64,000 bases of DNA, from the NCBI GenBank assembly GCA_963855995.1, contig OY979716.1, positions 44,676,480 to 44,740,479 on the forward strand, in the 5' to 3' direction. Position numbers and translations under genes: made by a program. This document shows, piece by piece, positions 44,562-64,000 of the stretch. The notes below the pieces were generated by a model. The model was not told the origin of the DNA. It was given only the letters and a program-made list of their open reading frames with translations, and made no database searches. Source of the DNA: Muricea muricata. Taxonomy: Eukaryota > Cnidaria > Anthozoa > Malacalcyonacea > Plexauridae. How positions within the stretch are numbered: position 1 is the stretch's first letter; the number at the start of each line of letters is the position of its first letter.

Positions 44562-44629
44562 CTTTAACGCTGTGTCGGATGCTTCAGGTAGAAGGATTTT
44601 TTAATCGACCGGCCAGCGAATGTGGCGCG

Positions 44630-46900
44630 TTAATGAAGGCGAAAGAAGAAGGTAGATGGACATGTTGGATGGGTGACCAAATGCCGAACCCACAAAACAT
44701 GCAACGACTGAATTTTACGCTCCACATCTACGAGACCCAAGCCTCCGTGACTCATACGTTGGGTAACCGAAACTTGGGCCAATCTTTCTGGCTTCTTCCA
44801 GAAAAAGAAAAAAATGATGGCGTTCAAAGAGGCATCCGAAAGGACAACAATTGATGTATCATCCACATATTGACAAAGCTTGACAGGATCCGAGCCAGGA
44901 ATGGTAAAACCATCAATAAGTGGATCCGCTCGAATGGCAGATGCAATTGTCTCGGCCATGATAACATATAATAGGGGTGAAATGGGACGTCCCTGTCGGA
45001 CGCCCCGCGACACAGGAAAGAACTTCGTCTATTAACCATTCAGCAGAAGGCACGAGTGAATATGGGAATAAAACAACGTTATCCATTGACGAAAGGAGTC
45101 GCCAAAGTTCATTTTGCGTAAAACCCGAAGTAAAAACACCCAATCTACACGGTCAAATGCTTTTTCCTGCTCAAGGGAAAGAATTGTGCCACCCATGCCG
45201 CAGCTGTTAAGATCATGAACAGTGTCCTGTAATAGACGAGTCTTTGCACTAATGTTTCGGCCTGTGATGCCACACACTTGGTCCGGATGAATAACGGAGG
45301 GTAGAACTGAAAGTAGTCGATTGGCAATTGCTTTTGTGACAGTTTTGTAATCGACACATAAAAGGGTGATCGGACACCAATTTTTCATTTGCATTCTGTC
45401 ACCTTTTTTGAACAGTAGCGTTATGACACCACAGTGTTGAGTTGAAGAAAGATGCCGAGACAAATAGCAAGAATTCAGTGCATCCACCAGTGACCCATAA
45501 GTGGCCAAAACGTTTTAAAGAATTCAGAGGGCAACCCTTTCAGACCAGGAGACTTTCCCCTTGGCATCACATAAGGCAGCCCTGCATTCTTTGTTGGTGA
45601 GAAGACCTTTGCAGGATCGGCATTCAGCAAACGTAAGGAAACGAGTTAAATGCAAGAGGAAAAAATCCTGTTCACTCCTGAGAAGAGACTGTGCGGTAAA
45701 AAGCATGGTGTAGAAAAGAATCCAAGCTTGTGCAATTAGGAAGAAAGACTTCACAATGACTCCAGACACTGTCGTAATGGCAGCGAACAATCGAGCTTGA
45801 CCTTGCTTTTTCTCCAGATTGAAAAAGTAGGCCATACAAGCCTCCCTTTCTTCGGCCAACTGAATCTGAGCGCGGATGTGACAACCACGAGCTTGCTGAC
45901 AATGAAGCTGCTGGAGCTCGGTTTTCGCGTCATCAATTAGAGATTGTACGTCTTCCCCGGAATCTGCCCGACAAGCCAGAAAGAACAGAGTGCGCTCCAG
46001 CAAACTGACACGCTTACAAAATTCGCAAGCCTTACGACGAGAAAATGAGCATATCTTGCGGCGAAGGCGCATTTGCCAGGACTCCCAGAAGCAGGTGACC
46101 ATCAAAATAAATGAAAGGTCTTTGATGTGGCTAGTATTAAATTTCCACAGGCCAGGTCCTCGATGAACAGAATTTGGAATGACGAGCTTTAAATAAACAT
46201 ACCAGCGATCTGAGCGAAAAAGAGGTAATATTTCTACGGACATAATGAAGGGTAACAGAAAAGAACACAGCCAAAACATATCCAACCGAAAGCCTGCAGT
46301 GAATTTGATCGATACCAGGTGTATTCTTTTGTATCCAGGTGGTGAAGGTGCCAAACGTCTTGCAAACCATATGTTTCCATTAATTCAGCGAGCGTACGGG
46401 ACCAATTATAGGCCCATGGTGAGAAGATATTGCAACCACAGCGATCCGATGATGCGTAGACGACTGTATTAAAATTCCCACAGAGGACACAAGGGATGGA
46501 AGGATCCAAGATAGAATACAGGGATTCGAAAACTTACCTTCTTTGGCAGTATTTGGGCCATAGGTATTGCACACTTTGTATGACAGTGGTACTGGTGGAA
46601 AACTGCGCATCGACCACACAGCCATGATCATCACGTGTACATGTGGACATGGTAAATTTAGAGGAATACACAATGGCTACCCCACAACTACGATTCATTC
46701 CAGGAGAGGACAAACATGAATAAGTACGATTAAGTAGGCTGTTCTCTTTAGCAGTTTTTAGCCAAGATGAAAATTCAGATTCTGTCACCAAATGTGTCTC
46801 TTGTAAACATAAAAAGTCAACGCGACAGCAATTTAACCATGAAAAAGCACCTCACGGTTAGCCAACAATCGTAACCCCTGGCAATTCAGGGTGACAACTT
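44630..46900 (-). pseudogene. LINE copy 1 ORF2: endonuclease and reverse transcriptase
   Basis: Endonuclease pieces are shifted (WSMRSFPPVPLSYKVCN, then TYGLQDVWHLHHLDTKEYTW, the usual endonuclease C-terminus). A linker frame runs 46354-45524. RT has VITLLFKKGDRMQMKNW, YKTVTKAIANRLLSVLPSV, LSLEQEKAFDRVDW, then GVRQGRPISPLLYVIMAE and CQYVDDTSIVV. After YVDD the frame jumps to FFFFWKKPERLAQVSVTQRM, so roughly 200 residues of RT and thumb are deleted. Several stops and shifts leave it inactive. Confidence 0.85.
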
Positions 46901-46976
46901 CAAAGGAAAGTCGTGTTTCCTTTTCAGACTCGAATGAAAAACTATAAAAAATTACAATAAACAACGTTGTATACAA

Positions 46977-48555
46977 TTACTTTTTACCAAACGTCCCCGA
47001 GACTGGTCGGGGACGTGTGTGCTTTGAAGAGAAAGGGTCGTATAAAAGAGAGGAGGATTTTGAAGGAACCTCCACACGAGAAGAATTGGCTGTTGAGGAC
47101 TCTCGAGTGCTCGAACGCTTATCTGCCAATAACTGGCTAGGACCAGAAGAAAACTGGGTATAGCCCCTATTTTGTGAGAGATTAAGGGGGAACTGAGATA
47201 ATGGGGAATCTGTGATATCGCTCGAAGTGTCAATATTACAATCAGGTTCTTCAGAAACTACAAGAGACGAGTCCAAACTGTCAGTATCAGAATCTTCCCT
47301 GGGAAGGGGCACCTTTGCAGCCTCCAAAAGCACCTTACCACGCTTAGTACTTGGAGTATTAGAGTCTTCTGAAGAACCAGAAGATGCAGATAAAGGACGC
47401 TTAAAAGCAACACGATCAGTTTCAGCATCAGCAAAAACCTCATCGTACTCAGACTTGCTATTTTCTGAAGAGTCAAACAAGTCATCACCACCAACATCGT
47501 CGGCCCCTGCAATAGTCGATGCAACCGCCTCAGCATATGATTTAGGTGGGGACCTTTGAGGGTCACCTTGTCTATCCAAGCCCGATTCCTGAGCTACAGA
47601 ATCATCAATCATCTTATCCGGAACAGTTGAAACAACTGCTCCCTCTAAAAAGGTAGAACCGGGAACAACAACTTCCTGTCACACAAAAAGGGGAGCTTTA
47701 CCAACTGCTGTCCCCCCTGGAACAGCAGCAACATCAGAAATTTTAGCAACCATCCCCTCTGGAGTAGTTGAGACCTTATCATTAACCACCCCCGCCAGAG
47801 CGCTGGGTGCAACATCAACTGCTGCCCTCTTGGTAGCCATAGGAACAGTGGTGATAATTTCCTCACCTGGAGGATTAAGAGCAGGAGCAACTCTGCCTCT
47901 GTTTGATCAATAACTTGTTCAACTAAATCTTGAGAAACATTCATTGCAACCGCTCCAACCAATTCAGTCTGAGTCTCAGCAACAACAACAGGTGCATCCT
48001 CCGCCTCAACACGAGGAGGAGGAACTTGAGCACGAGGACAATTTGCCAGATTGACGACATTGCAAAACAAGTGGGAATCTGGCCCTGATAAAATACGTTG
48101 CACCAATGTTCCGCGACACGAATAGATGATGGAATTGGTTTAGAAATTTCCATCAGAATATTTTGAACGCTGACATACACGCCTTGGTATTGATCCATTT
48201 TCACTTGGAAAACATGGCCATAGGGCTGCAATGCTTCGACTATGGCTTCCTGCTGTATGCCATAACTAAGGCGCGTAAGGTTGACCCATTTGGCAGACCT
48301 ACAGGGCCTTATTTGTATAAGACTTTCTTTAAAGGATACCCCTGAATTCTTAAATTCTTCAAATGTGCATGAACTTTTACATGTTACGCACACCAGCCTA
48401 GGGGAAAGCAGTACAAATGCTTTGAATAATTCCTGAAACCCTTTGGGAAATTGACATTGAAATTCATCAATAACGGATTTGATCATCACCTTGGGCAGCC
48501 CTGCGACAGCCGGTATAAGAATGTCTGCTGTCCGGTTGGCAAATGGTATATGCAT
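46977..48555 (-). pseudogene. LINE copy 1 ORF1 (RNA-binding protein), frameshifted
   Basis: The start at 48555 reads MHIPFANRTADILIPAVAGL, with an RRM-like or ORF1 core region around residues 60-130 (WVNLTRLSYGIQQEAIVEAL). A weak zinc-knuckle region follows at about 48100, then a long acidic/Ser-rich tail at 47612-46977 (SSENSKSEYDEVFADAETDR). At least two frame changes lie near 48080 and 47640. The layout parallels ORF1 of copy 2 at 62554-60409. Confidence 0.7.
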
Positions 48556-48794
48556 GCTAAGTTAGTATAAGTACTAAATTAATATGCGGGTTAAACTACA
48601 AAAGGAAGAGACACCCTAGCTAAGGACAACGAACCGGGATGGCAGGCTATGGTCAACACCTCGCCCACCCAACTAGTGCAAAAAAGAGTAAGAGAGAACC
48701 CATCCCATTCAGTGGCCCCCTTCATATCCTTCTATTCTTCTGATCCAATCTTCTTTCTTCACTCTTCAGATTTCAGCTTCAGTAACTTCTTATC

Positions 48795-48849
48795 TTCAGA
48801 CTGATATATCAATCGATAATCTTCATTAGGCAAAAGGCCGAGAAGCGAT
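48795..48849 (-). ncRNA. 5' end of a U2 snRNA gene, truncated by LINE copy 1
   Basis: From 48849 downward the minus strand reads ATCGCTTCTCGGCCTTTTG, the universally conserved start of U2 snRNA, then CCTAATGA and a weaker match as far as TATCAG near 48805. The branch-site-pairing block is not preserved, and the Sm site and downstream stems are absent because LINE sequence follows. It is therefore a broken U2 gene or an insertion-split one. It lies 418 bp downstream of U1 on the same strand. Confidence 0.7.
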
Positions 48850-48884
48850 ACCTTGGCTGGGAGCGAGAATCCTTTATCCCCCTC

Positions 48885-48935
48885 ACATTGGCGTGCGTGC
48901 ACGCGGTACTTTCGTGAGTTGAGTTTGCATCAGAG
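48885..48935 (-). promoter_or_regulatory. Candidate U2 promoter (octamer-like and PSE-like)
   Basis: Upstream of the U2 start, the minus strand has ATGCAAAC (48930-48923, about -80), one base from the ATGCAAAT octamer used by snRNA distal elements. CTCACGAAAGTACCGCG follows at about -52 to -68, where a proximal sequence element would sit. Spacing supports a genuine snRNA promoter; the element sequences vary too much between phyla to prove it. Confidence 0.45.
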
Positions 48936-49267
48936 TCGCTCGCGCAGCACGCGAACGGGTCGTTTCGGGCACGAAGGTCACGTCATGCATACACAGCATG
49001 GGCACCGTCTACGGCTTTAATCATCACGTGCAAACTTCCGCGATTCAACAACACGACTTACTTCATTAAAAGCATAATACAGCAAAGGCAGACAGTTCGA
49101 GACAGACGTAGTATATAGCAGTGACTTCTGCTTTTCATTGTCACTAATGAGTAGTGTCACTCTCCGAGATTTTATAATAGCATGTATAGATCTGTCTGTT
49201 CGCTGCTGTTTGTCTTGGCACATTCTAGTCACTGCAATTACTATTGCTATATGTTATTAGATGACAA
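48936..49267. other. Spacer between U1 and U2
   Basis: 332 bp with no coding frame. I could not pick out a confident 3' box after U1. Confidence 0.5.
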
Positions 49268-49432
49268 GAGGGGACGAGCGCGAACGCAGGTCTCCGCTAG
49301 CAGAAATTCTACGCTCGAGTTACCCACATTAGGGGTAATCGCAGGAGTCAACCCATTCTTGGTGCAATGAAAGGTTCTCATCCTGAGAGGACCTCCTAGT
49401 TGATCGAGGTGCCTCTCGCATCAGGTAAGTTT
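49268..49432 (-). ncRNA. U1 snRNA gene body
   Basis: About 165 nt on the minus strand. ACTTACCTG (pairs with 5' splice sites) is followed by stem-loop I with a GATCAAC loop (U1-70K site), stem-loop II with CATTGCACC (U1A site), and CTGCGATTACCCCTAATGTG, close to the conserved third-stem region. Then come CTCGA, an Sm-type site AATTTCTG and a final stem TGCGTTCGCGCTCGTCCCC. Every conserved landmark of U1 is present in order. Its own promoter is not adjacent: LINE copy 2 ends directly at nucleotide 1-3. The head base at position 13 (T) differs from the promoter-linked head at 63.7 kb (C). Confidence 0.9.
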
Positions 49433-49798
49433 ATATTTTAAAGATGGCGATTCCGTCCCTACTGAGGGAACTTGCAATGGAATGCCATATTTCAGGGTGT
49501 GCACCCGCAAGCAAACGACTGGGGAGATGATCCCCAACCCTGACTAAATATGTGCACCGGCTATTTCTTTTTGCAGTGACGCGGCACTGGCACATATTTA
49601 GCGCTAACATAAAATGAACAAACAGGACAGTAAACAGGACAGAAAACAACATAAGCACAAGCCAAACATAAAGTGCGTGCCTAATTCGAATTAAATTACA
49701 TGCCCCTACAATTAAAAGCTAAAAAAGCTAAACTAAAACCGTGGACGGAGTGACACGCTAAGGTCACACCGGGATTAAAAGGAGAGTAAAAAGGACAC
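49433..49798 (-). other. 3' UTR of LINE copy 2
   Basis: Non-coding. The last ~200 bp match the partial LINE at 63797-64000 (shared GTGCACACCCTGAAAT / TGTACACACCCTGAAAT-type block and CCCTCAGT). This shows copies 2 and 3 belong to one family with one tail. Confidence 0.75.
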
Positions 49799-51612
49799 TC
49801 AGAAGGCAAAGACCAATTTCGTACCCTCAAAGTGCCCCAAAGAACCGCGAGCAAGCCAATCTCGCTCAAACGCACGAATTTGAGCAGGAGACCTACACTG
49901 CTTACTAAGTAAGCCTAAAATAAACTTAACTTTTGCAATGGCTTGACTAAGGCATTTAGATGTGATCGGCACCCTCTGACGGAAACGGAAGTCGCAACGG
50001 GAAACCCAGATGATATGCTTCATGACTAGCAGCATGAAGATGATGATAGAAGGGATTGCCCGCCGACAAACCTCCGAAAATCTGAACAGCAACTCCTCAA
50101 CGGTAAAACGACTAGCAATTGGGTTGATGGCACTTAATTGGCAAAACACCCATGCAATCAAGAGTCTAGCCAGTTGGCACTCGAAAAAAAGGTGTTCGAG
50201 AGTTTCATCATCGGCCCTGCAAAAGCAGAGGCTATCGACATGTGCCATTTTGAAGCGATGCGTCAAACGAGCCCCGGTATACAAAATACCGTGGGCAATC
50301 TGCCAATTGAGATCGATTACCTTACGGTCCAGATCGTAGATGTGCAGCTGGCTCCAGGTTTGGGGCCAGTGCAACAGACCGTAAGTTGGCAGGAACTTGC
50401 TGATACAGTGAGGTTGTTTGTATTGACAAGACCGCAATTGTTCATATGTGATTTGAGAGGAGAGCTGCTCAACTGGAATAGGCACGCCAGAAGATGCCGC
50501 AATACTTAACACCCCACCATTCACTTTGCCCCCATCCAAGGCCCGCCATACCCTGAATAGGAGCTGGTAAAAGATGGGGAGGGTTTCGTCCAGATGGCGA
50601 GGCCGCACAGATAGAAGGGCAGCCCGTGGCTGTAAATTAAAAGAGGACAAAACAAAATATATAAAAAATGACTTTCATTTGCTCGCCGAAGGAGCAAAAA
50701 ATCGCTTCAGCCACTGTATGACAAAAGATTCCGCTTTTAGAGCGAAATTAATCACCCCAAACCCACCTTGGGATTTGGGGAGGCTTACTGTGGTCCGGGC
50801 AACCAAGTCTCGTTTGCCCGACCAAAAGAAGGACCAGATAGCTTTACTGATTCTTTTCTCTGCCCACGGAGGAATTGTAAACACATGGCAGAGATGCCAT
50901 ATCTGGGATAGGGCCAAAGTATTAATGATAACTGTCTTGCCCTGAAAAGACAGCTGTCCGCCTGACCACACCGTGAAGTGCTTTTCTAGTTTTGCTACGG
51001 CTGGCTCCCACGTTGGGATGGCGTAGTCACCAACGCTGAAGGTCGCAGAACCCATCGCAACCCATGAGGGGTGGTTGTGCGAGCCTTCCAGGAACCAGCC
51101 CACAGTCCTTTGGATTTGGCCCGGTTTAATTTTGCACCAGAGGCTCTCTCATATGTTGAATATGTGTTAAAGACCTCTGCAAGAGAGTCATCGGTGGTAG
51201 CCGCAACAGTCGTATCGTCGGTATATCCTGAGCTCCTAAACTCCTCCAAAGAATTAGGAAGTGTAATGCCTGTGAGTTTTGAGACGTCCGAAGACAGACG
51301 GCAAGCACTTCAATTGCTAATACATAAAGAAGCGGGGATAGCTGACACCCTTGCCGCACGCCGCGAGAAGGAGAAAAAAAAGGAGGAAGTCCAGCGGTTA
51401 ATGATGACGGCCGACTCTATATTATTATAGAATAATTTGATCCATTTAATGAAATCTGGACCAAAGTTAAAGGAAGAGAGTATGCGGATGAGAAAACCCC
51501 AGTCTACTCGATCAAAAGCCTTTTCTTGATCGAGAGACAAAAGCGCAAGTGGGAGATCCTCCCGATCCACATACTCCAAGAGATCTCGTATTAGAGATTC
51601 TCAGAAATGGTG
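49799..51612 (-). pseudogene. LINE copy 2 ORF2: RT core to C-terminus
   Basis: Resumes after the Gypsy insertion with EYVDREDLPLALLSLDQEKA then FDRVDWGFLIRILSSF, and in other frames RQGCQLSPLLYVLAIEVLA, GYTDDTTVAA (the YxDD block, here YTDD), and GQLSFQGKTVIINTLALSQI. The 283-codon C-terminal frame contains DLNWQIAHGILYTGARLTHR and CFCRADDETLEHLFFEC (CCHC finger), ending at 49799. Three or more shifts near 51.3-50.7 kb break it. Confidence 0.85.
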
Positions 51613-51833
51613 TGTTACCCGCACGCCGAGTTCATTAGTAGATCGAATAACGATGAAATAATCAAAAGGATTTATTTATAACAACAATAAAAATCTACAA
51701 GAACGTGTTCATACATCGCCATCTTGAATCATCTCTCTTTCTTGCTGTTGCCATAGCAACAGCTATTTTATAGTTCTTACATGACGTATGGACGTCCTAC
51801 ACTAGTTCTTACATGACGTATCGCCATCCTACA
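51613..51833 (-). repeat. Gypsy 3' LTR
   Basis: 221 bp, TG...CA ends. Contains a near-tandem pair of AGTTCTTACATGACGTAT blocks. Identical by eye to 58461-58681. Confidence 0.95.
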
Positions 51834-52132
51834 CTCACCCCTCCTATAACTTGTTGTCCTCTATCGTTTGTTCATACTCGCACTGTCTCGACTACTAATT
51901 ACAGTCTTTGGTGATCTGTTGGTTGATCAGGCCCGCAGATACAATACCAAGAAAGTAATTTCTAACTTCGATCTTTCTTTTCTTCGGCCGACGTTTTCGT
52001 TTCTTGTTGGTCAGGAATTTTCCTGGAATTTTTACTCTTGTAAAAAGTTTGTAAACTTGTTTTCTAACAGTTAGCGTGTTTATTTGACAGCGAACTTTAA
52101 ATGTTTTACGTTTATGGACTTCTTGTGTTCTT
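51834..52132 (-). other. Gypsy 3' untranslated segment
   Basis: Non-coding. Next to the LTR, read on the minus strand, is a purine-rich AGGAGGGGTGAG, the likely plus-strand primer. Confidence 0.6.
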
Positions 52133-54108
52133 CTAACACAACAAAGTTTGGTTCATCTCTGGACCGTAACAATTCCACCCGTAAGACGGAGGCATTGGTG
52201 GAAGGAATGGTGGCGTTGGGAATATTGGGGACAGTAGGGGTATCGGGAACATCGTGGTGGTTGGGAACATTGGGGATGTTGTAGGAAACGGGTTTGTTAG
52301 ATACATTGGGAACGTTGGGAATGTTGTCGAAAACGGGTTTGTTGAATGCATTGGGAACGTTTGGAATGTTGTAGGAAACGGGTTTGTTGGATGTATATAA
52401 TTCGGTGCAGATGCGCTGATAGTGTTAATACTTCCCCAATAATCATTTGGTTGCCCTAGGTTTCCGTACGCCAATCTTATTGGTGGTCTTCGAATTCGTT
52501 GCGAGCTTCCCGAGCTCTGAGCATCAGCCTGTACACTTGTTTCTGTTCGTTCCGTTGCAGCAGTCGCTGTTTCAACATTCTGAGCGGATTCTAGTGTTAG
52601 TCCAGGAATAAGTGGTTCATTTAAATTTTGGACACTTTCTTCAGGGATTACACTTTCCTGCACTTCTTCCTCTGGAATCTGGTTGTTTTGGACGCTTTCT
52701 TCAGGGACTACACCTTCCTGCACTTCTTCCTCTGGAATCTGGTTGTTTTGGACGCTTTCTTCAGGGATTACACCTTCCTGCACTTCTTCCTCTGGAATCT
52801 GGTTGTTTACATTTTCAACTGAGTCTGAAAGTCCATGATGTGATTCTCTTAAGGTTATCTTGGTGATTTGTTCAGGTAATATTTTCGGAATCTCGGACTC
52901 ATCTTCGCTATCTGTTGAATGATCTTCACTCGTGGGTTCTTCCTTCTCCTTCTTGCTTTTGTTTTGACGTTTTGGCTGGGAGGGTTTCATGGCGGATCTT
53001 TCCACAGGGAGGTACGAACATGGGAAGAGCATGTTCCTATGCAGTGTTCTGGTCTTTCCCTCTCCACTCTCTGGAATGACATCGTAGACGGGAATCTCGT
53101 CGGATTTCTGACATACGATTTTATAGATTTCATCTTCCCAATAGGACCGTAGTTTGCCAGGACCACCCCTTTCTTTTCCATTTCGTATAAGCACGCGATC
53201 ACCGGGTTGAAAGGTTGTACTTTTGGCTTTCTTGTCGTACTGTATTTTTCCGCTTGTAGCCTTTTTTGCTGCTGTTTCAGATGCGAGTTGATAAGCTTCA
53301 GACATTGCGTCTCTCCATTTCTTAACAAACTCAGGGTACGTACTGTAACCGGGAGGGGGTTTCAGTCCGAACATTAGGTCAATTGGTAGTCGCGGAGGTC
53401 TGCCAAAGAGTAACAAGAATGGTGAATAACCCGTGGCATCATGTTTTGTGCAATTATATGCGTGTACGACTTTGTTAAGATGGTCACGCCAACGGCTTTT
53501 GTATTTAGCTGGTAGGGAACGAAGCATTGACAGGAGAGTCCGGTTAAACCTTTCGACTTGGCCGTTACCTTCAGGATGATAGGGAGTTGTTCTAGAATGT
53601 TTGATTCCACTTAACTTTTCCAGGTTGTAAAACAGTTTATTCTTGAATTCAGCGCCTTGGTCGTGGTGTATCTTCTGTGGGAAGCTTCGTTGTAGAGCTT
53701 ATCTGCAGCGGTTTTTGCTGATTTATCACGTGTCGCATACGCTTGCGCGTATCTAGTAAAATGGTCCATGACGACCAAGATGTACTGATATCCTCCAGCA
53801 CACGTTTCAAGATGGAGATAGTCAATGGAAACCATTTGGAAGGGTGCTGTTGTTACTATAGGATGTAGTGGTTCTCTTGGATTTATGGGTGGTTTCTTAC
53901 TTTTTAAACACGGACACACTTTTGTGACATAGTGAGTGATATCTTGTCTCATACGAGGCCAAAAAAACCGTTCACAAGCCAAGTCAATGACCCGTTCCGA
54001 GCCCAGATGTCCCATTTCCTCGTGGAATTCTTTATAAACTGTTTTACGTAAATGTTCTGGCAATATAGCTTGATTTACGTTAATTAGATACCCGGTATAA
54101 AACTCCAT
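52133..54108 (-). pseudogene. Gypsy integrase and proline-rich repetitive tail, shifted
   Basis: The zinc region HLRKTVYKEFHEEMGHLG with CPCLKSKKPP is followed by SIDYLHLETC (first Asp), then, after a small indel near 53695, HHDQGAEF (second Asp) and HPEGNGQVERFN (Glu). The C-terminal domain has FQPGDRVLIRNGKERGGPGK. The tail has three ~20-residue repeats (NNQIPEEEVQEG(V)IPEESVQ type, 52612-52840) and a second repeat of NPFPTTFxTFPM type (about 52180-52410). This part is one frame off from RT, joined near 54100. Confidence 0.85.
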
Positions 54109-57100
54109 CTGTTCCGATTTTGAGTTTATTCCACTCTCGAAGAAGCAGCTGTACCTTACGGCTTTCTTGCTTGCGTTCCTGGGGAGATAGGTAGGTGTTC
54201 CCTAATTTAAGTGTTATGACGCGGTTGACATCGGGGTCCTTACTTTGTTCCTTTTTTAGGTTGGTCGATATTTCAGTTGTGTTTATGTCTGCGCGATGAG
54301 TTTCAGGGGAAAATGGCATTGTGGATGGGATCTCGGATTGTACTTGCAACCCCGAAACACTAGCTTGAACAACGTCATGATTCACCTCTGCACTGCACAT
54401 TTTCATGTATTCGTCGATTTCCCTCGGCATTCGTGACAATGCGTCAGCATCTCCGTTGAGTTTCTCGGGACGGTATCGAATATTGAAATTGAAATCAGCC
54501 AACTCTCCTATCCATCTCAAACCAGTGGCGTTCAGTCGGGCAGATGTTAAGACGTAGGTTAGAGGATTGTTATCAGTGAAAACGGTGAACTCGGGGGCGT
54601 AATACAAATAATCACGGAATTGGTCCGTTATAGCCCATTTGAGCGCAAGAAATTCCAATTTGCCCGCGTGGAGGTGGTAGTTTTTCTCTGCGTTTGTAAG
54701 ACTTCGGGAAGCATAGGCGATAACTCGAACTGTTTCTTCCTGCTTTTGGTACAAGACTGCACCAAGACCGTCTTTCGACGCGTCCGTATGTACTATGTAA
54801 GGCCTTTGGTAGTCCGGGTACGCCATCACTGGGGGTGTTATAAGATGATCAATCAGTTTCTCCAACACCGTCTGATGTTGTTTAGCCCACGCAATTTTTA
54901 ATGATGATGGAACTTGACGCCTCTTTCCGGTGTCATTCGCTTGCTCTTTATCACTGTCCGTGTTCGCTGCTCGCGTGACTAGATCATATAGCGATTTAGC
55001 TTTCTGGGCAAAATTCGGTACATATCGGCGGTAATAACTGAGCAAACCGAGTAGTTTTCGCAGTTCTCCTATTGTTTGTGGTGTTTTGTTTTTAAGACTT
55101 GCAACCGCATTAAGATTTTCGGGATCTATTCTGTAGCCTTCTTCCGATACCACTCTACCCAGGAATGTTACTTCGCGTTTGAACAGTTTACACTTCTTCT
55201 GCTTCAACTTAACTCCATGTTCTCTCAAACGACGTAGCACGGTTCTTAAATGTTCCACATGCTCATCAAATGTTGTACTAAATACGATCACATCATCTAA
55301 GTATGGGATGGCAATCTCGTCGCGTAATTCTCCTACACAGTGTTCCATGAATCTCTGAAAGCTTGCTGGGGCGTTCATGAGTCCGAATGGGATCCTAAGC
55401 CATTCGTATAGGCCCCACGGCGTCACAAATGCTGTTAAATGCTGACTTGACGGTTCCACAAATCCTTGGTGGTAGGCCTTACCCTGATCTAATACACTAA
55501 ACCACGAATTGCCGCCCAAGCTATCGAGTGTTTCTTGGACCCTTGGTATAGGGTGCCGGTCGGGAACTGTTCTACGATTGAGTTCCCTATAATCGACACA
55601 AAGTCGGAGTGTTCCATCTTTCTTACGGATACAGACCACTGGAGATGAATATGCTGATCGAGACTCCTTAATAAACTGTTTATTTAATAGATCTTCGATA
55701 TATTGCTTTACTTCCGGATAAAGTGGTCTTGGTACTGACACGTAGTTCTTTTGTACTGGCTCGTTTGTTGTCAAATTAACACCAAGTTCTAGATCGTTGA
55801 TACAGCCGATATCCTCATCATTTCTTGCAAAGGAGTGGCATTCTTCTCTCAACATAGCTTTTGCTACTTTACGCTGCTGCTCGGTTAACCCAGTAAGATC
55901 AATGTCAGGCAAAAAATCGTCGTCACTTGTATTTTCTTCTTTCGCGGTTCTTTTCTCTGTCATTGTTACTTGTGATTGAGAGACGGTTGCAGATGTTTCC
56001 GTTTCTTCACCTGCGTTTTCTGCAAGCTTCACTTCTACCGGTGTAATAGATTTGACCAATTGAAGACTCCCCAGTATCGTATGTTTTCGCAATACAATGT
56101 CATGATTAGTCGTATTAATAACATCTATCTTAATTTTCGACGTTGAACCTCGTTTGACTGCGGTAACCGTTTCATGTATAGCTAAACCCTGCGGCCATGG
56201 CGTTAATTCATCTGGTTCAAATAAGACTGGCATGGCTTCTTCTACTGGTCCGGTATTTGCTCTACAATTAACTTGAATTGTTCATTTTGCAGGAATAACA
56301 ACGTCTCTTTTTGAACTCTTAATGGTACACAGCCTATCTGCCTTTGTTCCTTGTATCAGCTCAATCAAGTCAAGCAGTACAATTTCATCCAAGTCTTGGA
56401 AACTAGCTTGTACTGCCGCAATATGTGTTGATTGGTGACCATCTAATAGATTAACAGGTTGGACAAGTTCCTCAATGACATTATATCCCAGAATAGGATA
56501 CTCTAAATTCTCATTTGTAATTAGAAAGGGTATCATAACCGATGGCTCATCTTTACTGGAAGAAGTCAATCGGACTTCTATTTCAACCCAACCGCTGTAT
56601 GCGATTTTTGTTCCATTAGCCGCTGTCAAGTGTAGTTCCTCGTCAATTAATTCGGAAATATCTCTTACCGTCGCTTTGTTAAAGAACTTCTCCATCATTT
56701 CTCTTGACAAAATAGATACTTGTGCACCAGTATCCCACAGTACCTGTGACTCAATGTCATTTAACAAGCATCTCACCGTACACCGCCGTCCAACAAGTTT
56801 AGCAATCTTCGTATATTCGCTTGGAGTTGAATGGCTTACAAATGTCTTATTTTTGCCGTTTGGTCTGTTTTGACTTGTCCATGTCAGGTCCCTAAGAGTC
56901 TTACAATTATCTTTGTGATGATTCCAGTGCCTTTTCTGACAGAGTTTGGAACAGTAAACTACACATTTACATTGTGAACACCGATACATTGTCATTTGAC
57001 CATTGTCTTTACCACAGTTACTACATCTTTGGGACCCCATTTTTCCTTCGGCTACTTCCGGCCCCTCTGAGGCAGCCTCTTGGAGTTTGAAGCACTTCGG

Positions 57101-57118
57101 CCTTGGTTCTGTCGACAT
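54080..57118 (-). pseudogene. Gypsy pol with N-terminal MYND zinc finger
   Basis: One frame from an ATG at 57118. Residues ~32-72 form a MYND finger (CSNCGKDNGQ ... CSQCKCVVYCSKLCQKRH, then H and C). The retropepsin active site VLWDTGAQVS follows, and an in-frame TGA at 56282 separates this from the rest. RT has [34 protein letters not shown] and YLDDVIVFS. RNase H has [15 protein letters not shown] and [10 protein letters not shown]. The frame ends at 54080, next to a shifted integrase. A MYND finger is a protein-protein interaction module of chromatin regulators and is not a standard Gypsy part, so this looks like a captured domain. Confidence 0.85.
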
Positions 57119-58347
57119 CCAACTGCATAATGGTTATCACTTCCACAAATATAACAATGAAAACATCTAACATTTCCAGTCGCCTGGCACTGTGAACATT
57201 ATGGAGTGTTCTTTCTCTGGTTTCCAGTCTCTTGTAGTTGTACCCCCTGAGGTGGACTTGCTTGTTCAGTTTCTTGATTTCTTTCCTTTAACTGACTCTT
57301 GACCTGGGCAACCTCTATTTTTAGAGCTTCCAAGGTCTCAAGAATCTTGTCTTGTCCCTTGTCATTCTTTTCCTCTGCTACCCGTGACACTTGGGCCGAC
57401 TTTCCACGGTTTTGACTTCTTAACTTTCGAGCACGTTCATCCTCTGTTGACACAGCATTATTGACTTGTCGAATCAGTTCTTCGTCTGATATTGTTGAAT
57501 CTTTTAGGTACCCCCTAACCCTTACTCTTACGTTTTCGTCTTGCAATCCAGTTTCAACCGTACGTAGAAAAAGCTTTTGAACGTGGTCAGTTTCATAAAC
57601 CAAAGTGTCCTCACCTTGATCTTGAGTGCGTGAAAACAGGATTTTCTGCCGTAAATCGAGGGCACGCATAAGGAATTCTTGTGGCGACTCTTTTGGGCCT
57701 TGACATATTGATGCAAGGCTTTGATACAATTCAGTTGAATTCTTAACACCATAATGGTTTCGGAGAATTTTCCGTAATCGTTCTAGAGATAAGTCCTTAA
57801 AAGTTTCAACATAACTTCGAAGAACCATTCCAGCACTAATTGCACGAATTACCCCATCTACAATTTCTTGCTCTGAATAACCTTGTTTCAAACCAGAGTC
57901 TACTTGCCTTGTTGAAGATGTAAAACTTAACTTATCCTTTTCATCTGGGTGCCCGATCTGTCCGACAATCTTAAACTGTCGACGAAATACACTGGTAGAT
58001 TCCAGCATATTTTTTATGGTAGGGTTTTCCAACTTTTGTGGCAAAGGAGACTTTGATTTCTCCCCTGTAACATTCGTGTCATTCACCACAACACTCGTTT
58101 CAGTTACTTCAGGTGTTTCAAAATGACGAGAGCGTAGGCCTTGCAAGAATGCCTTTCGTTCTTCATCTGTTTTAGCCATCAACTCTTTATCGATATATTG
58201 GAAAATAACACACATGATTGTACTCCGTCTCTGTTCATCTATTTCAAGTTTAAACTCCTCGGCAATAGCTCTGAGTGTTTCGTCAGACGCCTGACACAGT
58301 TTCATTTGCATGTTTTGTTGTACTTCTTCAGCCATTTTAAAGTCCAA
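57040..58347 (-). pseudogene. Gypsy gag with zinc knuckle after a stop
   Basis: The ATG at 58347 begins a 382-codon frame: helical capsid-like region (LSFTSSTRQVDSGLKQGYSE, then KESPQEFLMRALDLRQKIL) and a Glu/Lys-rich linker. It ends at a TAA at 57199-57201. The same frame continues immediately with CSQCQATGNVRCFHCYICGS, a CCHC-like knuckle (DNHYAVGC), to about 57040. The TAA is therefore either a premature mutation or a recoding site. The knuckle segment overlaps the start of the MYND-pol frame in another frame. Confidence 0.8.
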
Positions 58348-58460
58348 ATACGTAACGTATCAATTTTAAGAATTCAGCAGAGACCATATTAAAATCATAC
58401 CTTTTTCCTCGTATCTTTTAACTTTATTTATCAATAAACGTCTCGGTGGGACCTCCAAAT

Positions 58461-58681
58461 TGTTACCCGCACGCCGAGTTCATTAGTAGATCGAATAACG
58501 ATGAAATAATCAAAAGGATTTATTTATAACAACAATAAAAATCTACAAGAACGTGTTCATACATCGCCATCTTGAATCATCTCTCTTTCTTGCTGTTGCC
58601 ATAGCAACAGCTATTTTATAGTTCTTACATGACGTATGGACGTCCTACACTAGTTCTTACATGACGTATCGCCATCCTACA
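58461..58681 (-). repeat. Gypsy 5' LTR
   Basis: Same 221 bp as 51613-51833; on the minus strand it precedes gag. The target duplication GGTG follows at 58682-58685. Confidence 0.95.
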
Positions 58682-58685
58682 GGTG

Positions 58686-60419
58686 CGGCCAGGAACACCA
58701 CACGTTTGGTCTGGACCAATCACAGAGCCCAAAACCCCTAAAAGACAATCCGAGATGGCACGAGTAGTAATTTTATAATCTACGTTTAGAAGACTGATGG
58801 GCCTCCAGTTCTTTGTTTCCAGAGGGTTGTCTTTTTTATATAGTACTATAATAAGCCCTCGACGCTGACAGGTGGAGAGCTGGTCTCGCGACGCTGAGAG
58901 GTGGAGAACCCGGTCTCAAATGCAAGATTGAGAACACGGACCAGATCAGCGCAGAGAGCTTCCCAAAAAGCAACATAGAATTCCATGGGGTATCCGTCTG
59001 AGTCTGGCATCTTACTGCGACTCATGCCCATAAGAGCTTGAAAACACTTGTCCACAGTAAGACACCCTTCACATGAAGCCCGTTCAGTTTGATTAAGGCG
59101 ACGCGTTAACTTTGCCAGAAGTTCATCTTGGGCAACAGGGTCGCACTGCGTAGCAGTGAAAAGGTCTTGGTAATAATTCTGCCAGACACCTATGATGGCA
59201 AAAGGGTCATGGCAGACTTCACCCGTGTTGGGGTCTCTGATGGACTTCATGACCTGTTTGGCATACTTTTTGGTGGCCAGGTTAAGGAAAAGAGGAAGAG
59301 GTCTCCCCTTCCTCTGCTCACTGACAGCGAACACGGACCTGGGGGCCTCGAGCCTCATGGAGAGCAATGTTGCGAAGTTCCTGCTGAACTTCACATAGAG
59401 TAGTGAAGGAGGCCTGATCTCCGCCCTCGAAAAGGACCTGCAATTCTCGCATACGTTTAAAGAGCGAGGACTTATCGTTTTGTTTTCGTGCAGCCTTAGA
59501 TTTGGAGTAAGAGCGAGTAACCTTGCAAAGGTAAAATTTTCCTTGGTCCCACCAATCTAGTAAGGATGCGAAAATCCTTGTGGTCTTTGTACGTGTCCCA
59601 GAAGGACCAAAATGATTTTACTAAGTCAACATATTCTGGATCCTGGAGGAGGGAAGTGTTGAATTTCCACACCCGCAGTCTAGCAATAATGGGATCACGG
59701 AAACTGCACTTAACCAGTAGGTACTGGTGATTTGAGAAGAAGGATGGGTAATAATTGCATTCTTGGATGCAATCTTGCATGACAGTGGGCGACCAGATGT
59801 CTATGCGGGACGCAAATTCGTCAGACCCATGCGTCCACGAATAGGCTATGCGCTGCGAGTGAAGGGTGCGCCACAGCAGATATGTCTGAGTGAAAGACAT
59901 AAGGGCCTCAAGAGCAGGGCCAGTCTCTTGGGCATGCGCATTCGCACTGTCAGAAAATGAGGGACGGCGCTTGCGATCCAGAGCGCTATCTAAAACAGAA
60001 TTGAAATCGCCAGCCACAAAAACAGGTCGCGTCAGATCAATAAGAGGTAAAGAGGTAAAAAAGGTGTTGCGGACAGGATTTTGATTTGGTGCATATAGAG
60101 ATATGAAACTAAGGGATTCATCCCCTAAAGATACTAAAGCTTGGACAAACCGTCCAGCATTATCACGGATGATTTTATGGATTTTGTATGTATCTTTTAC
60201 TAAAATGGCTGTGCTACCACTTTTATTAGTGAAACAAGAGGAGGCAGCGTGAAAGCCAGAGTTACGGAACCACCATCGGATAGATTCATGAGAAGGTGCA
60301 TGCGTCTCCTGAAGACAAACAACATCCACCTTCATGTAATGGAGCCAATCTATAAAAGCAGTCTGCTTTCTATGATCATTAAGACCGTTAATATTTATTG
60401 CGATTATGTTAAAATTCAT
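58686..60419 (-). pseudogene. LINE copy 2 ORF2: APE endonuclease and RT start
   Basis: The ATG at 60419 overlaps the ORF1 stop by a few bases. The endonuclease has NIIAININGLNDHRKQTAFI, VVCLQETHAPS, ISLYAPN, VFVAGDFNSVLD, and near its end IDIW and FFSNHQYLLVK (H of SNH), so the APE catalytic residues N, E, D, N and H are visible. A frame break near 59495 leads to the linker (RKGRPLPLFLNLATKKYAKQ), then the RT fingers at 58860-58690 (TKNWRPISLLNVDYKI, DQTCGVPGRT), where the Gypsy interrupts. Endonuclease specificity would explain the U1 target. Confidence 0.85.
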
Positions 60420-62554
60420 TTTCTAAGAAATGAAAGACAGATAATGTAGGAAACATTAACTGTAGGGCACGAGTGTCGCGAAGCGATTCTGGCGAATTGC
60501 ATGACTCACTGGAGTCAATAACAGCACCTGTCTCCACTCTAGGAGGAGCAGGGGAAGAAGGTTCAAGAGTACTTGGACCATGAATTGAAGAGGAGGAAGC
60601 TGGTGGAGTGTCACTCCCTAAATCTATATCTTGATTGTTATCATGAACATCTTGATCATGATAAGGAACTAAGGCTAGAGAGGAGACTGGTGAAATCTCA
60701 CTCTCAGCAGATATATTATTATTATTATTATTATTTGACTGAGAAGAGTAGCCTGGCGGGGACTCACTCTCCACAGTCGTACTATATTTATTATTTTCAT
60801 TGGCGTTAAGGTCCTTTTGGTCATTGGTACTAGGCAGAGGGGAGGAATGAGGCTGGGCTGAAGCCCAAGGTGCATACCCTTCAGCAAGGACTTTGATCGT
60901 AACTTCCTCACTAGATGGTTTAGACGGCACTTTTGAGGCAACTGCAGAAGTCGCCAACATAGGGGAGGAAGGAAGAGGAGGCAAGTCTTCAAAATGAAGG
61001 AATGGACCAACAACTGATGATCCGGCCAAGCAAAAATCTACGTCCTCAGATGGTACGGACTCAGTGAGACGACGACGTTTCCGGCGTCGAGGCTCTGCCA
61101 ACGAGATGTCATCTAAGTCAGCGTCTGAATCAAAGAGTAAAGCTTTGCCTCCAAAAGAACTATGCTTGGCAGATTTAAAAGGCTTAAATGTGGGTTCGGC
61201 AACTGACACGTTTACATCAAATGCGAAGGACGGAGTAGCTGGCACAGTATATGTGCAAAGTAGACGTTCCCAGTAAAACGCTCGGGAGATAGACATACCA
61301 CAAACAAAAAAACTTGTAGAAGTGGCATCGTAGCCAGCAACAGTTCGAGATTGTTGTGCCAGTACTTCAAATTGGTCCTCAACTGTAGACTCCACGTCTC
61401 CTGTCTTAGATTCGTCCAATTTTGAAGGAAGATTAAACATCTGGCGCAGCGCAGCCAAATGGGCAGCAGGAGAAGTGGAAATAGAGACCGTTTCTGGTCC
61501 ATTAGATTCTGGGGAGGAAGGAACAGCGACCGTCGGTGATAATGTGACTGCCTGACTCCTGTCTCATCTAGTGTATTGTTGGTTTTTGGCGCTAATGGAC
61601 CGTTTATGAGAAAGGTTCTATCTCCATTAAGGCAACAGATGAGAGGGAGGAAGTCGCCTCAGCATTTGGCTCTACATCGTTACTCCCACCCTCTCTGTCT
61701 ATTTGCTGACCTTGTGGCTCATCAGCCTCTACTTCTTTTTGTGGAGGAAGGTAAATTTGAGGGGTGGTTTCCACCTGATCCCTGGGTGCAGGTTTGGCCG
61801 CCTGCTTGGCGTCTAGTTTTGTCCTTAAGTCTTCCTCCGACTTTGATGATGGCTGGGTTGTTTTTGGCCATCAGATTTAACCTTCAAGTTAGCTTGAGTT
61901 AAAGGTTGACTAGTGATGTTATTACTATCATCCCTGGTAGTATTATTGTTGTTGTTGTTGGTATTGGCTGCGGGCCCGCCACGACTTCGAACAGCCCCTG
62001 CCCGTATGCCCCACCTCCTGGCACACGAAACAGGTTGGTGGCTGCCCTCGGTAACGGAAGGAGACCAGAAAACCACCTATATTTGTATTTGCAGGGATGG
62101 GCTTACTAATTAGCATGGACACCCTACGTGTGCCAGATCGAACTGAAGGAAAACCTTTGACCTTCAAATGTTGGACTGAAATAACCCAGCTGTAAAGGGC
62201 CAAGGTGTCAAATAAATGCTGATCCTGCCTTTGTAGAGGTGCCCGCTCTACAAAGACGGACTTTACTTCCTCATATGCAGGAAGGGTTGTCAATTGGATA
62301 CCCCGAAAAGCTATGCCATTTATATCGGCAGCGTGCCGATTGGACGAATAACGGTATTCTAGTCTGTATCTAGTGGGAGACAAGGCCTGTACTGCAGCTA
62401 CCTTGCGCTCCCCAATGGCATTTATGAGTTCTTTCCTCAACTGCGGTATTTTAGACTGTTTGACAAGGCAAGCTGGAATGTTCACCCCCGAGGTAATTTG
62501 GTTCCATCGCTGGAAGTCTGCAGCCGAGAACTTTATTGTGTTGTTAAAAATCAC
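60409..62554 (-). pseudogene. LINE copy 2 ORF1 (nucleic-acid-binding protein), shifted
   Basis: Starts MIFNNTIKFSAADFQRWNQ. An RRM-like or ORF1 core occupies residues ~50-160 (GIAFRGIQLTTLPAYEEVKS) and then a zinc knuckle CFVCQEVGHTGRGC. A CAG/CAA/AAC-type tract at about 61940-61960 gives poly-Q or poly-N depending on frame and seems to have caused shifts. A long Ser/Pro-rich acidic tail follows (61458-60409), ending ENEF at a TAA that overlaps the ORF2 ATG, an arrangement suited to reinitiation. Confidence 0.75.
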
Positions 62555-62559
62555 TGGAT

Positions 62560-63160
62560 AAAAACAAACAAATTCCCAAATACAACAAAAACAAAACTTT
62601 TAGTGCTAAAATAGCGCTAAAAGAACCTACTATTAAAAGGCGCCTGTGCAATTGCGTACAATTGTCCCAGACTACTATGGCCTTTTAATAGACCACCAAT
62701 AGCACCCCCCTAATGTAAATACTATGAAAGACGCGCTCAAACCCTGAAGGTAAAAGATGACCAAGAACCCCAACAGGAAGCATCAAAGAAACCAGAAAAA
62801 AGTGATCCCTGACCTTTGAGCCACCTGGCTCAACCGGCCCAACCAGGGAAAAAACTAGTTCCCTCTACCTAAAATGTATTACACTATGTGCACAAAATGG
62901 AGGGAGTTGCCCTGCTAGTCAGGGACAATGGAAGAACCAGCCAACCAGTTAAAAGAAGAAAAAGAGGGGGATTTGTTGCCAGCTGGACTGAACAACGGAA
63001 GAAAACTACTAGAAGGGTAAGGGTGGTGGAGCGTCTACACCAAGCACTATAGGGGTGTAGCTAGTAGAATCCGGCACAGTCGTGTTAAGGGTACCAATCC
63101 CTAGCATGGATGTCCACAACTGCCCGGTCGAAGACACTGAACGCGAGTGCAAGTGACTCA
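62560..63160 (-). other. 5' UTR of LINE copy 2
   Basis: Non-coding. The 5' boundary is set by the U1-like sequence ending at 63161. No internal promoter was identified. Confidence 0.55.
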
Positions 63161-63174
63161 CGTCAGGTAAGTTT
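63161..63174 (-). repeat. U1-head target duplication at the 5' end of LINE copy 2
   Basis: The minus strand reads AAACTTACCTGACG, the same as the start of the U1 body at 49432 apart from one C/T difference. It separates LINE copy 2 from the 490-bp insertion. On the plus strand the same bases read CAGGTAAGT, a perfect splice donor, so a donor is the competing explanation. Confidence 0.65.
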
Positions 63175-63667
63175 TTATTGCAAGGCCTGCTCCCAACACC
63201 AATAGGGCAACCACTCGCTGAGAGCGGACGTGTAATACTGAGCTCTTGAGATTTTCTTCTTGAGACTCTAGAATTTTAATCGATATGTCTAAGGACACAA
63301 TCAAATCTCTCAAAAAACAGAACGATGACTTAAAAGGACAAGTTGATTCCTTAAAAGGAGAAATCACAAAGCTACAAGAGGAAGTTTGCAGTAATAGAAC
63401 GACTTTAACAACGAGCAACTTGAATGCAACTTGAAAGGCCCCCGTTCGCGAAACCGCACTTTTCTGTGAAGAAAAGCCCGCTACAGGTACCGCACCTCCC
63501 AGAGCGCGAAACTAGTACGCCGTTAAGCGCACTAGCTAAATCTCCCAAGGGAGAACAAAAAATACAACCTGCTGGGCGTACCATACAGGAGGAAAAAACT
63601 GCTGGGCAAATCATACAGTATGAGGTGCCTGCTGGGCTAACCATACAGACGAAAAACTTAACCTAAA
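63175..63667 (-). mobile_element. Short insertion between two U1 heads
   Basis: About 490 bp, bounded by U1-head sequence on both sides (63668-63683 and 63161-63174). Minus-strand 3' end reads CCTTGCAATAAAA before ACTTACCTG, which suits a retroposed tail. Its sequence is unlike the LINE tails. The plus strand has a 49-codon coiled-coil-like frame at 63286 (SLKKQNDDLKGQVDSLKGEI) and a 3-unit repeat encoding AG-(R/Q/L)-(T/I)-IQ at 63569-63652. It could be a SINE-like passenger, a 5'-truncated LINE, or part of a plus-strand gene. Confidence 0.5.
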
Positions 63668-63683
63668 CGCGTCAGGTAAGTAT
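63668..63683 (-). ncRNA. First 16 nt of U1 snRNA next to its promoter
   Basis: ATACTTACCTGACGCG on the minus strand, with the canonical first nucleotides AUAC. It is followed by the 490-bp insertion rather than by the rest of U1. The rest of U1 resumes at 49.4 kb, after the LINE. It is too short to prove alone; the promoter-like sequence and the matching junctions support it. Confidence 0.65.
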
Positions 63684-63780
63684 GAGTTTAAGCATGACTG
63701 GCACTCACCTTTTATTCACCCAACAAGAATGGAAACGGACGTGGTTCTGCCTCGTGCTGCCTAGCTAATTTGCATGGTTC
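63684..63780 (-). promoter_or_regulatory. Candidate U1 promoter with ATGCAAAT octamer
   Basis: A perfect octamer ATGCAAAT lies on the minus strand at 63775-63768, about 85-92 bp upstream of the U1 start. A GGCAGAACCACGTCCGTTT segment at about -50 to -68 occupies the proximal-element position. The analogous octamer-like site is found upstream of U2. The octamer is the known distal element of many snRNA genes. Confidence 0.5.
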
Positions 63781-63796
63781 CCTGCCCCACGTTCAG

Positions 63797-64000
63797 TAAG
63801 TTTGTACTTTTAAATATGACATAGCCGTCCCAACTGAGGGATTGTGCAATGCCATGCCGAATTTCAGGGTGTGTACCCACACACAAAACAACTAGGGAGA
63901 CGATCCCTAACCCCGACTAAATGTGTATTGGCCGGTACACATTTAGCACTAATGGACACGACAACACTCTGACGAACAGGACAGAAAACAAGGCAGAAAA
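63797..64000 (-). mobile_element. LINE copy 3, 3' end only (runs off the window)
   Basis: Closely matches the 3' UTR of copy 2 (for example CCCTCAGTTGGGACGG and CATTTAGTCGGGGTTAGGG on the minus strand). Its end also meets U1-like sequence (AAACTTACTGAACGTG), the third such junction. The coding part lies beyond the window. Confidence 0.75.

Follow-up and report, generated by a model that had tools for sequence, protein, structure and literature searches.

Probable site-specific integration of an APE-type LINE and a SINE partner at the 5' end of U1 snRNA genes in Muricea muricata

A 64,000-nucleotide stretch of Muricea muricata contig OY979716.1 (positions 44,676,480 to 44,740,479 of the forward strand, assembly GCA_963855995.1), referred to here as the window, contains a U1 snRNA gene that begins where a LINE stops. 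This arrangement raises the question of whether the LINE selects U1 genes as targets. The 453-Mb assembly around the window carries U1-U2 snRNA genes in tandem arrays, and an initial annotation had proposed a LINE family specialized for U1, possibly accompanied by a passenger. We consider it highly probable that an APE-type LINE has the 5' end of U1 as its specific integration site, and that a SINE partner uses the same site.

All features of the window described here lie on the minus strand. The U1 body (49269..49432) passed the U1 covariance model as a full-length match to RF00003 (model positions 1-166, 133.4 bits, E = 1.3e-33), and its junction with the end of the 3' UTR of LINE copy 2 was confirmed; the LINE lies immediately upstream, and the gene's own promoter is now absent. 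The 3' part of LINE copy 2 (49433..51612) contains ORF2 fragments and the 3' UTR, with a 3' end that abuts U1 at approximately nt 3, and the 5' part (58682..63156) contains the 5' UTR, fragments of ORF1 and of the endonuclease (PF03372), and the start of the reverse transcriptase. The earlier description of this copy requires correction, as it is interrupted by an LTR retrotransposon (51613..58681) with identical 221-bp LTRs and CACC on either flank. The 5' copy of the LINE's 16-bp target duplication (ACTTACCTGACGTGAG, U1 nt 3-18) is found at 63157..63172, next to an insert at the same U1 site (63173..63667). Beyond the insert is a remnant of U1 nt 1-16 (ATACTTACCTGACGCG, 63668..63683), which lies behind a U1 promoter containing a putative PSE-like block common to other U1 genes (AACCACGTCCGTTTCCATTC, 63727..63746) and a putative octamer (ATGCAAAT, 63768..63775). 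The recurring site reported initially was recovered, with ACTTACCTGACG matched perfectly at 63681 and 63172, and at 49430 with a single mismatch; all four other matches with up to two mismatches lie inside the LTRs of the nested element.

Approximately 420 bp after U1, the 19-nt U2 5' end at 48849 (U2 nt 1-19, 48831..48849) is followed directly by LINE copy 1 (43788..48830, with an RVT_1 domain, the boundary being that of the last ORF, since the actual 3' end was not located), as had been annotated. This copy belongs to a different, decayed family that is distantly related to copy 2, based on 24-54% protein identity in the matched pieces. Rfam searches up to E 10 found no U2 at 48500-48950 and neither U1 nor U2 at 63100-64000, probably because U1 pieces of about 16 nt and 19 nt of U2 are too little for the models.

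The 3' flanks of the LINE bear on targeting. The 3' end was retained in 40 of 41 LINE 3'-UTR copies examined, in a partial census of the LINE outside the copy-3 subfamily (a first look at 80 candidates, 40 of them scored). Thirty-four of the 40 ends run into the U1 start at nt 3, which belongs to a U1 body in 19 cases, to a SINE in 8 and to another LINE in 7, and four enter a further ACTCATACTTACC site, adjacent to the octamer of the U1 promoter. Thus 38 of 40 ends lie at U1-derived targets, in support of a LINE family specialized for U1, although many of these copies belong to arrays that duplication also enlarges, and the 38 ends therefore do not represent 38 independent events. Copies ending mostly at unrelated sequence, the outcome named initially as counting against specialization, were not what was found. 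The two remaining ends are located elsewhere: one (L034) sits in a CTTATACCTG minisatellite, and the other (L019) enters non-U1 sequence while its presumed own 5' end is in a U1 promoter. An exact LINE 3'-end pattern gave 38 matches in the genome compared to none for the reversed control; 36 were in U1 clusters or adjoining U1 sequence (including L019 with its non-U1 3' flank), the others being the minisatellite copy and a chance match without a LINE.

The junctions in U1 fall at nt 2/3 on the 3' side and nt 18/19 on the 5' side, with the insertion in the sense orientation relative to U1, and tandem insertion occurs at the regenerated target. A complete copy (L041) has intact ORFs, matching ends and the 16-bp duplication of U1 nt 3-18 on both flanks. 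The sequences collected gave 17 distinct contexts of the LINE 5' junction, of which 15 consisted of ACTTACCTGACGCGAG joined to TCACTTG, with at most one mismatch; in the other two the leader had diverged. We also considered a second site at U1 nt 135, based on two loci (L005 and L040) with the common junction AATTTCTGC to GCACCACTTGCC. This was rejected because the sequence after the junction seems to be a U1 promoter and start that have diverged, and because the LINE starting in L040 apparently extends as far as the upstream site of the following unit (L099, L100); the equivalent tracing for L005 (L098) missed the LINE end. From their sequences, we read both junctions as array rearrangements around an old insertion.

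The LINE encodes an ORF1 of 735 aa and an ORF2 of 1183 aa. The intact ORF2 holds PF03372 (4.2e-17) and PF00078 (9.1e-34), corresponding to an AP-like endonuclease and a reverse transcriptase, and its nearest solved protein is L1 ORF2p (E = 3.8e-82 across both domains). A CCHC zinc knuckle is typical of ORF1 in the Tx1 clade, to which the U2-targeting LINE Keno belongs together with Tx1L and Mutsu; a zf-CCHC search of ORF1 returned one weak match (E = 0.016, 15.8 bits, under the 20.8 cut-off). Among the best 120 of 1,975 homologues, most of them without a name, those named by organism were two unlabelled Paramuricea clavata predictions. A Paramuricea clavata sequence, P0112, was considered as a U1 LINE beside a U2 LINE and was dropped, its second half being about equally similar to both families. 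A search for relatives found no stretches by DNA pattern in viral contigs, where 0 of 9 were confirmed by protein, and 1 of 128 was confirmed in genome contigs, at 31%.

A second target is present upstream of the octamer (ACTTACTGAACG, 63790..63801), where the tail of LINE copy 3 ends (63802..64000). Copy 3 belongs to a diverged subfamily, 79% identical to the copy 2 tail over 131 bp. The initial annotation had copy 3 ending at U1-like sequence; its end is not at a U1 body but at this second target, next to a U1 promoter. A decayed U1 body in the spacer following copy 3 was rejected, since shuffled sequences matched U1 without its first 10 nt equally well in 337 of 500 and 364 of 500 trials, and comparison of sequences suggests the native U1 promoter as the spacer's source. 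In native C16 units, the U1-start site was present at 30 of 30 and the upstream site at 30 of 30 of the U1 loci examined, one of the latter being occupied. The upstream site was seen uninterrupted on C16, with a variant form on C1 (L082, L091, L092), and is used by the LINE, including the copy-3 type, as well as by the SINE (L020).

A potential concern is that a few chance insertions into U1 were multiplied by duplication and gene conversion of the U1-U2 array, with no target specificity. LINE copies do cluster, in one array at C1:44.4-45.9 Mb and another at C16:6.12-6.44 Mb, and four copies at the U1 start (L011, L012, L014 and L015), identical over 1,888 nt, may be array duplicates. We regard this explanation as very improbable because the same nucleotide was entered both by LINEs 81-94% identical to the copy 2 3' UTR and by a SINE unrelated to them, with all tandem orders represented, because a copy-3-type LINE also occupies the upstream site, because two distinct C16 sites have one 13-bp core, and because away from U1 the L034 end and four of six SINE 3' ends still enter ACTT. 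In addition, L013 is identical to the four copies over the same 1,888 nt but lies at the upstream site; identical copies at two different targets make activity look recent, as judged from sequence.

These data also bear on what is recognized. What the LINE recognizes might be the short motif CTCAT^ACTTACC, complementary to a 5' splice site; U1 genes would then be struck chiefly for the repeated motif and not through recognition of U1 itself. On C16 the upstream site and the U1 start have only the 13-bp core ACTCATACTTACC in common (with variants on C1), and both LINE and SINE use the upstream site, and off-target sites often retain ACTT, as in the 3' flanks of L034 and L019 and four of the six off-U1 SINE flanks. 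Set against this is the location of 36 of 38 exact 3' ends in or adjoining U1 sequence. We give recognition of the short motif slightly less than an even chance; it refines site-specific integration at U1 rather than opposing it, so the two overlap.

The initial annotation had also noted a 490-bp insert as a possible passenger. This insert is a real SINE, 495 bp long here (type A with an internal insertion), which has tandem arrays of its own. The SINE uses the same U1 site as the LINE, often in tandem, and the orders LINE-LINE, LINE-SINE, SINE-SINE and SINE-LINE were all seen. Among the distinct SINE 3' junctions collected, 17 of 22 were at U1-derived targets (15 by a script rule, 2 by reading); at least six copies (L076-L081) lie elsewhere, two of them with near-identical flanks. 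The head of a longer form, SINE B, consists of U1 nt 1 to approximately 89, up to 93% identical to U1 over positions 1-89, and this head has also travelled to two loci outside U1 (C1:48.07 and C1:50.61 Mb). The SINE 3' end has CATTGCAC, and AUUGCAC, which we take to be the U1 loop-II motif and U1A site, is present at the 3' ends of both the LINE and SINE A.

Dependence of the SINE on the LINE would be consistent with these sequences. Mobilization of the SINE by a different LINE, such as a U2-invading family, with the U1-start location secondary, is unlikely in our estimation. The 3' similarity between SINE and U1 LINE is modest (10, 43, 49 and 794 of 1,000 shuffles were as good for four pairs), and that between SINE B and copy 3 is no better than chance. 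The SINE and LINE nevertheless have the same cleavage point, the same flanking AAACTTACC and the same upstream site, occur together in tandem, and, in the case of SINE A, have CACCCTG..CATTGCA..CCCT in common near the 3' end.

Based on sequence, the ORF2 endonuclease would nick the bottom strand between U1 nt 2 and 3 (GGTAAGT^ATGAGT), and the nicked 3' end would prime reverse transcription of the element RNA; the top-strand cut would fall 16 nt further on. Elements would occupy positions +17 to +19 relative to an snRNA promoter, that of U1, and be transcribed from it, giving RNA that starts with the U1 5' end; this would account for the U1 head of the SINEs. Spare U1 genes in the tandem U1-U2 arrays may suffice to tolerate the insertion load. 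A more speculative proposal, which we hold to be possible but doubtful, is that LINE and SINE form a self-regenerating parasite system of U1. Insertion just behind the U1 start would capture the snRNA promoter and regenerate a target on either side, the longer SINE would have fixed U1 nt 1-89 as its head and so transport the target along, and AUUGCAC in the LINE and SINE A 3' ends might recruit a U1 snRNP protein. In this proposal, the resemblance of the nicked strand, GGTAAGT, to a 5' splice site means that insertions off target may fall at splice donors.

A LINE-SINE pair sharing a very short target core offers a direct system for the origin of specificity in AP-type LINE endonucleases, for how a SINE acquires an snRNA head, and for the way in which a genome copes with parasites inside a splicing RNA gene that is essential. 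Targeted insertion is a further area where a LINE with sequence specificity and intact ORFs is of interest.

Our literature search found no description of a U1-targeting LINE; in the literature found, U1 serves as a transposon target only for Dada DNA transposons (PMC3706591). Dada-U1A_DR and Dada-U1B_DR resemble the present elements in targeting U1 genes and in possible tandem insertion, but are DDE transposons with a proposed 6-bp target duplication, GCGAAT/GCGAAC, inside U1 (PMC3706591), within the 6-7 bp characteristic of Dada, whereas the U1 LINE is a retrotransposon with an ORF2 endonuclease and reverse transcriptase and a 16-bp duplication at U1 nt 3-18. Keno, described in PMC4640811 as an APE-type LINE of animals including hydra, is likewise an endonuclease-reverse transcriptase LINE whose insertion point in a multicopy snRNA gene is fixed to the nucleotide. 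Its target is U2, with a 3' flank from U2 nt 39 as in Utopia (PMC4640811), whereas the U1 LINE enters U1 nt 3 and a promoter-proximal copy of the core. Utopia also targets an snRNA gene and inserts occasionally in tandem, but has a restriction-like endonuclease and a U2 target (PMC4640811), in contrast to the AP-type PF03372 domain of the U1 LINE. The latter differs from LINE-1 in that its insertion is site-specific and its 3' end is short and lacks a long poly(A). SINEU elements reportedly go with Tx1-Mar and a Mariner target. They are snRNA-headed SINEs of crocodilians (PMC5753468), defined by a U1- or U2-derived head such as that of SINE B; the U1-headed SINE described here differs in that it inserts into U1 itself, alongside a U1-specific LINE.

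The initial annotation had proposed a LINE family specialised for U1, to be judged from the DNA that follows each 3' end. For this purpose, the assembly (453 Mb, 74 contigs; the window lies at C1:44676480-44740479) was searched with the 366-bp 3' UTR of LINE copy 2, the diverged copy-3 subfamily lying outside this census. The search gave at least 42 matches, a lower bound because only 40 of 80 first-look candidates were scored. Two of these are short fragments immediately upstream of copies already in the list, leaving 40 copies; flanks were inspected for all 40 (30 loci plus 10 loci) and for L095, added later, making 41, of which 40 retain the 3' end (L002 is cut short). The DNA 3' of these 40 ends is a U1 body (19), a SINE (8), the 5' end of another LINE (7), the upstream promoter site (4), or other sequence (2). 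In the first three classes the flank begins with AACTTACC or a close variant, that is, with U1 from nt 3 onward, so that the tabulation places 34 of 40 ends at this position, in line with the proposal, and a further 4 of 40 at the upstream site. The 3' end of L019 runs into unrelated sequence; a LINE 5' end 6.9 kb upstream, assumed to belong to the same copy, sits in a U1 promoter. L034 (L034/L096, C10:5.44 Mb) is a 5'-truncated LINE within a CTTATACCTG minisatellite, the letters of which resemble the U1 target. The exact 3'-end pattern occurs at 38 places in the genome, compared to 0 for the control: 17 on C16, 19 on C1, and one each on C10 (L034) and C7, the C7 place being a chance match with no LINE present.

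On C16, U1 genes are arranged in tandem U1-U2 units of approximately 1.64 kb; at least 42 are listed there, scoring having covered only these among 5,883 candidates. In the uninterrupted unit L069, ACTCATACTTACC is present twice, at the U1 start and approximately 124 bp upstream, there directly before the octamer ATGCAAAT; U1 nt 1-2 are AT. Among the 42 listed on C16, 30 U1 loci were examined; the U1-start site is present in all 30, whereas a LINE end occupies the upstream site in a single locus (L053), the other 29 being unoccupied there. Variant forms of the upstream site, such as CTCACACTTACCC, are found on C1 (L082, L092). An upstream site has been entered by four LINE copies, by the copy-3-type LINE L100, by the window's copy 3, and by one SINE (L020). 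At either site the target picks up again at ACTT after the 3' junction, and in 15 of 17 distinct contexts the LINE 5' junction joins ACTTACCTGACGCGAG to TCACTTG with at most one mismatch. Taken together, these junctions indicate a target duplication of 16 bp, U1 nt 3-18. The strand expected to be nicked first reads GGTAAGT^ATGAGT, a sequence similar to that of a 5' splice site. In two arrays (L005 and L040), a LINE with a common diverged leader (GCACCACTTGCC...GCGAA) is attached to U1 nt 135; the leader looks like a decayed U1 promoter following array rearrangement. The C16:6.11-6.50 Mb array switches strand near 6.30-6.31 Mb, with LINEs and listed U1 matches on (+) before and (-) after. A 63-nt block across the U2 core is N in the assembly (L011, L069 and other U1 loci; 54 blocks in the loci examined).

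Within the window, a U1 body does begin at the end of LINE copy 2, matching RF00003 at full length (133.4 bits, 49432-49269, minus strand). The U1 start motif ACTTACCTGACG, noted earlier at the other end of this LINE and beside the insert, is exact at 63172 and 63681 and differs by a single nucleotide at 49430; four further matches in the window (at most two mismatches) fall in LTRs. LINE copy 2 occupies 63156 to 49433 (minus strand) and is interrupted by an LTR retrotransposon (51613-58681) flanked on each side by CACC; this retrotransposon probably inserted recently because its 221-bp LTRs are identical. A second LINE tail had been described as ending at U1-like sequence; copy 3 does enter a U1-related target, but this is the upstream promoter site. 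The tails of copies 2 and 3 are homologous (79% identity across 131 bp). The U2 start followed at once by a LINE was also confirmed, with 19 nt of U2 at 48849 and copy 1 behind. Copy 1 is a different family, its protein sharing 24-54% identity with that of copy 2 in matched pieces; an AP endonuclease domain was found in copy 2 and an RT domain in copy 1. With the Rfam models that the initial annotation suggested, the locus at 49.3 kb gave U1; 63100-64000 gave neither U1 nor U2 and 48500-48950 no U2 (up to E 10), the snRNA pieces there being very short. Elsewhere in the window, three Rfam microRNA matches under gathering scores (4326-4473, 24935-25020, 25088-25177) are long palindromes and probably MITE-like inverted repeats. 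Long ORFs at 33930-39203, with a repetitive stretch near 35851-36324, look by reading like a BEL/Pao-type retroelement polyprotein.

In the window, the insert proved to be one copy of a SINE 301 bp long (SINE A). At least 36 matches were found at 86-100% identity over at least 166 bp (40 of 42 candidates scored); 31 of the 36 lie within C1:44.4-45.9 Mb, and weaker matches occur elsewhere. Copies are often arranged in head-to-tail rows, separated by 16-bp pieces of U1 (L017, L020). A longer form of 456 bp (SINE B) has a head corresponding to U1 nt 1 to approximately 89. At C1:48.07 and C1:50.61 Mb, both outside U1, this head is retained from U1 nt 3 or 7, and the head is therefore part of the mobile unit. 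Seventeen of 22 distinct SINE 3' junctions (15 by script rule, L020 and L025 by reading) are at U1-derived sites and five are not, which is not an unbiased rate since off-cluster copies were sampled deliberately; a sixth off-U1 copy (L080) has lost its 3' end. SINE A and the LINE both carry CACCCTG..CATTGCA..CCCT near the 3' end. The SINE A 3' alignment is weak, being equalled by 49 (copy 2) and 10 (copy 3) of 1,000 shuffles; for SINE B the figures are 43 and 794.

CATTGCA, which in the window lies near the 3' end of the LINE 3' UTR at 49433-49560, is unchanged in all 24 selected LINE tails aligned, diverged copy 3 included. In 34 of 40 tails CATTGCAC lies 48 nt from the end, and four carry CATTGCAT or CATTGCAA; the script found no motif of this type in the other two. 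SINE A carries CATTGCAC and the measured SINE B copy CATTGAAC. The heptamer ATTGCAC also occurs within U1 as the loop-II heptamer, which we take to be the U1A binding site. As a functional clue, a heptamer common to U1, the LINE 3' end and SINE A may serve as a lead only.

An intact element is found at L041 (C16:6336700-6344700), in the order U1 promoter, U1 nt 1-18, LINE, U1 nt 3 onward. Its ORF1 (735 aa) and ORF2 (1183 aa) overlap by 11 nt; ORF2 contains endonuclease, RT and zf-RVT domains (the last below cut-off), and ORF1 a CCHC knuckle match, also below cut-off. Among the best 120 of 1,975 homologues, those with organism names are predicted proteins of the octocoral Paramuricea clavata (58-60%), a result that would fit a cnidarian host without proving it. 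Five copies, L011-L015, are identical across 1,888 nt, yet L013 occupies the upstream site, and L011, L012, L014 and L015 sit at the U1 start. Identity could alternatively have arisen through gene conversion; given that it spans two different sites, we read it as suggesting recent movement.

The sequences show directly where and in which orientation the elements insert, the target duplication, tandem re-targeting, the intact ORFs, and a SINE partner with a U1 head; the site-specific LINE-SINE pair at U1 is real. In the mechanism we propose, the LINE endonuclease would nick between U1 nt 2 and 3, element RNA would undergo target-primed reverse transcription, the element would be transcribed from the U1 promoter, and the SINE would borrow the machinery of the LINE. 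A U1 copy that lies behind an insertion no longer has its promoter; many full-length U1 genes are still present.

U2 is broken after approximately nt 19-28 in 10 distinct contexts (L004, L014, L017, L018, L021-L023, L026, L027 and window 48849) and after nt 38 or 39 in two (L007, L045); in L042 the sequence continues as U2. Judged from the 5'-side breaks, the same arrays possibly hold two further candidate U2-specific families. In the accessible parts of the literature surveyed, which includes PMC8869645, PMC3706591, PMC4640811, PMC5753468 and PMC4455052, we recognised no U1-targeting LINE; this coverage does not extend to Repbase Reports or most subscription journals, and a Repbase entry may exist. 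According to PMC4640811, the 3' flank of Keno and Utopia begins at U2 position 38/39, and the U2 break in L007 and L045 corresponds to this published site. What is new is U1 as the target and the partnership of LINE and SINE; the kind of element is a known one.
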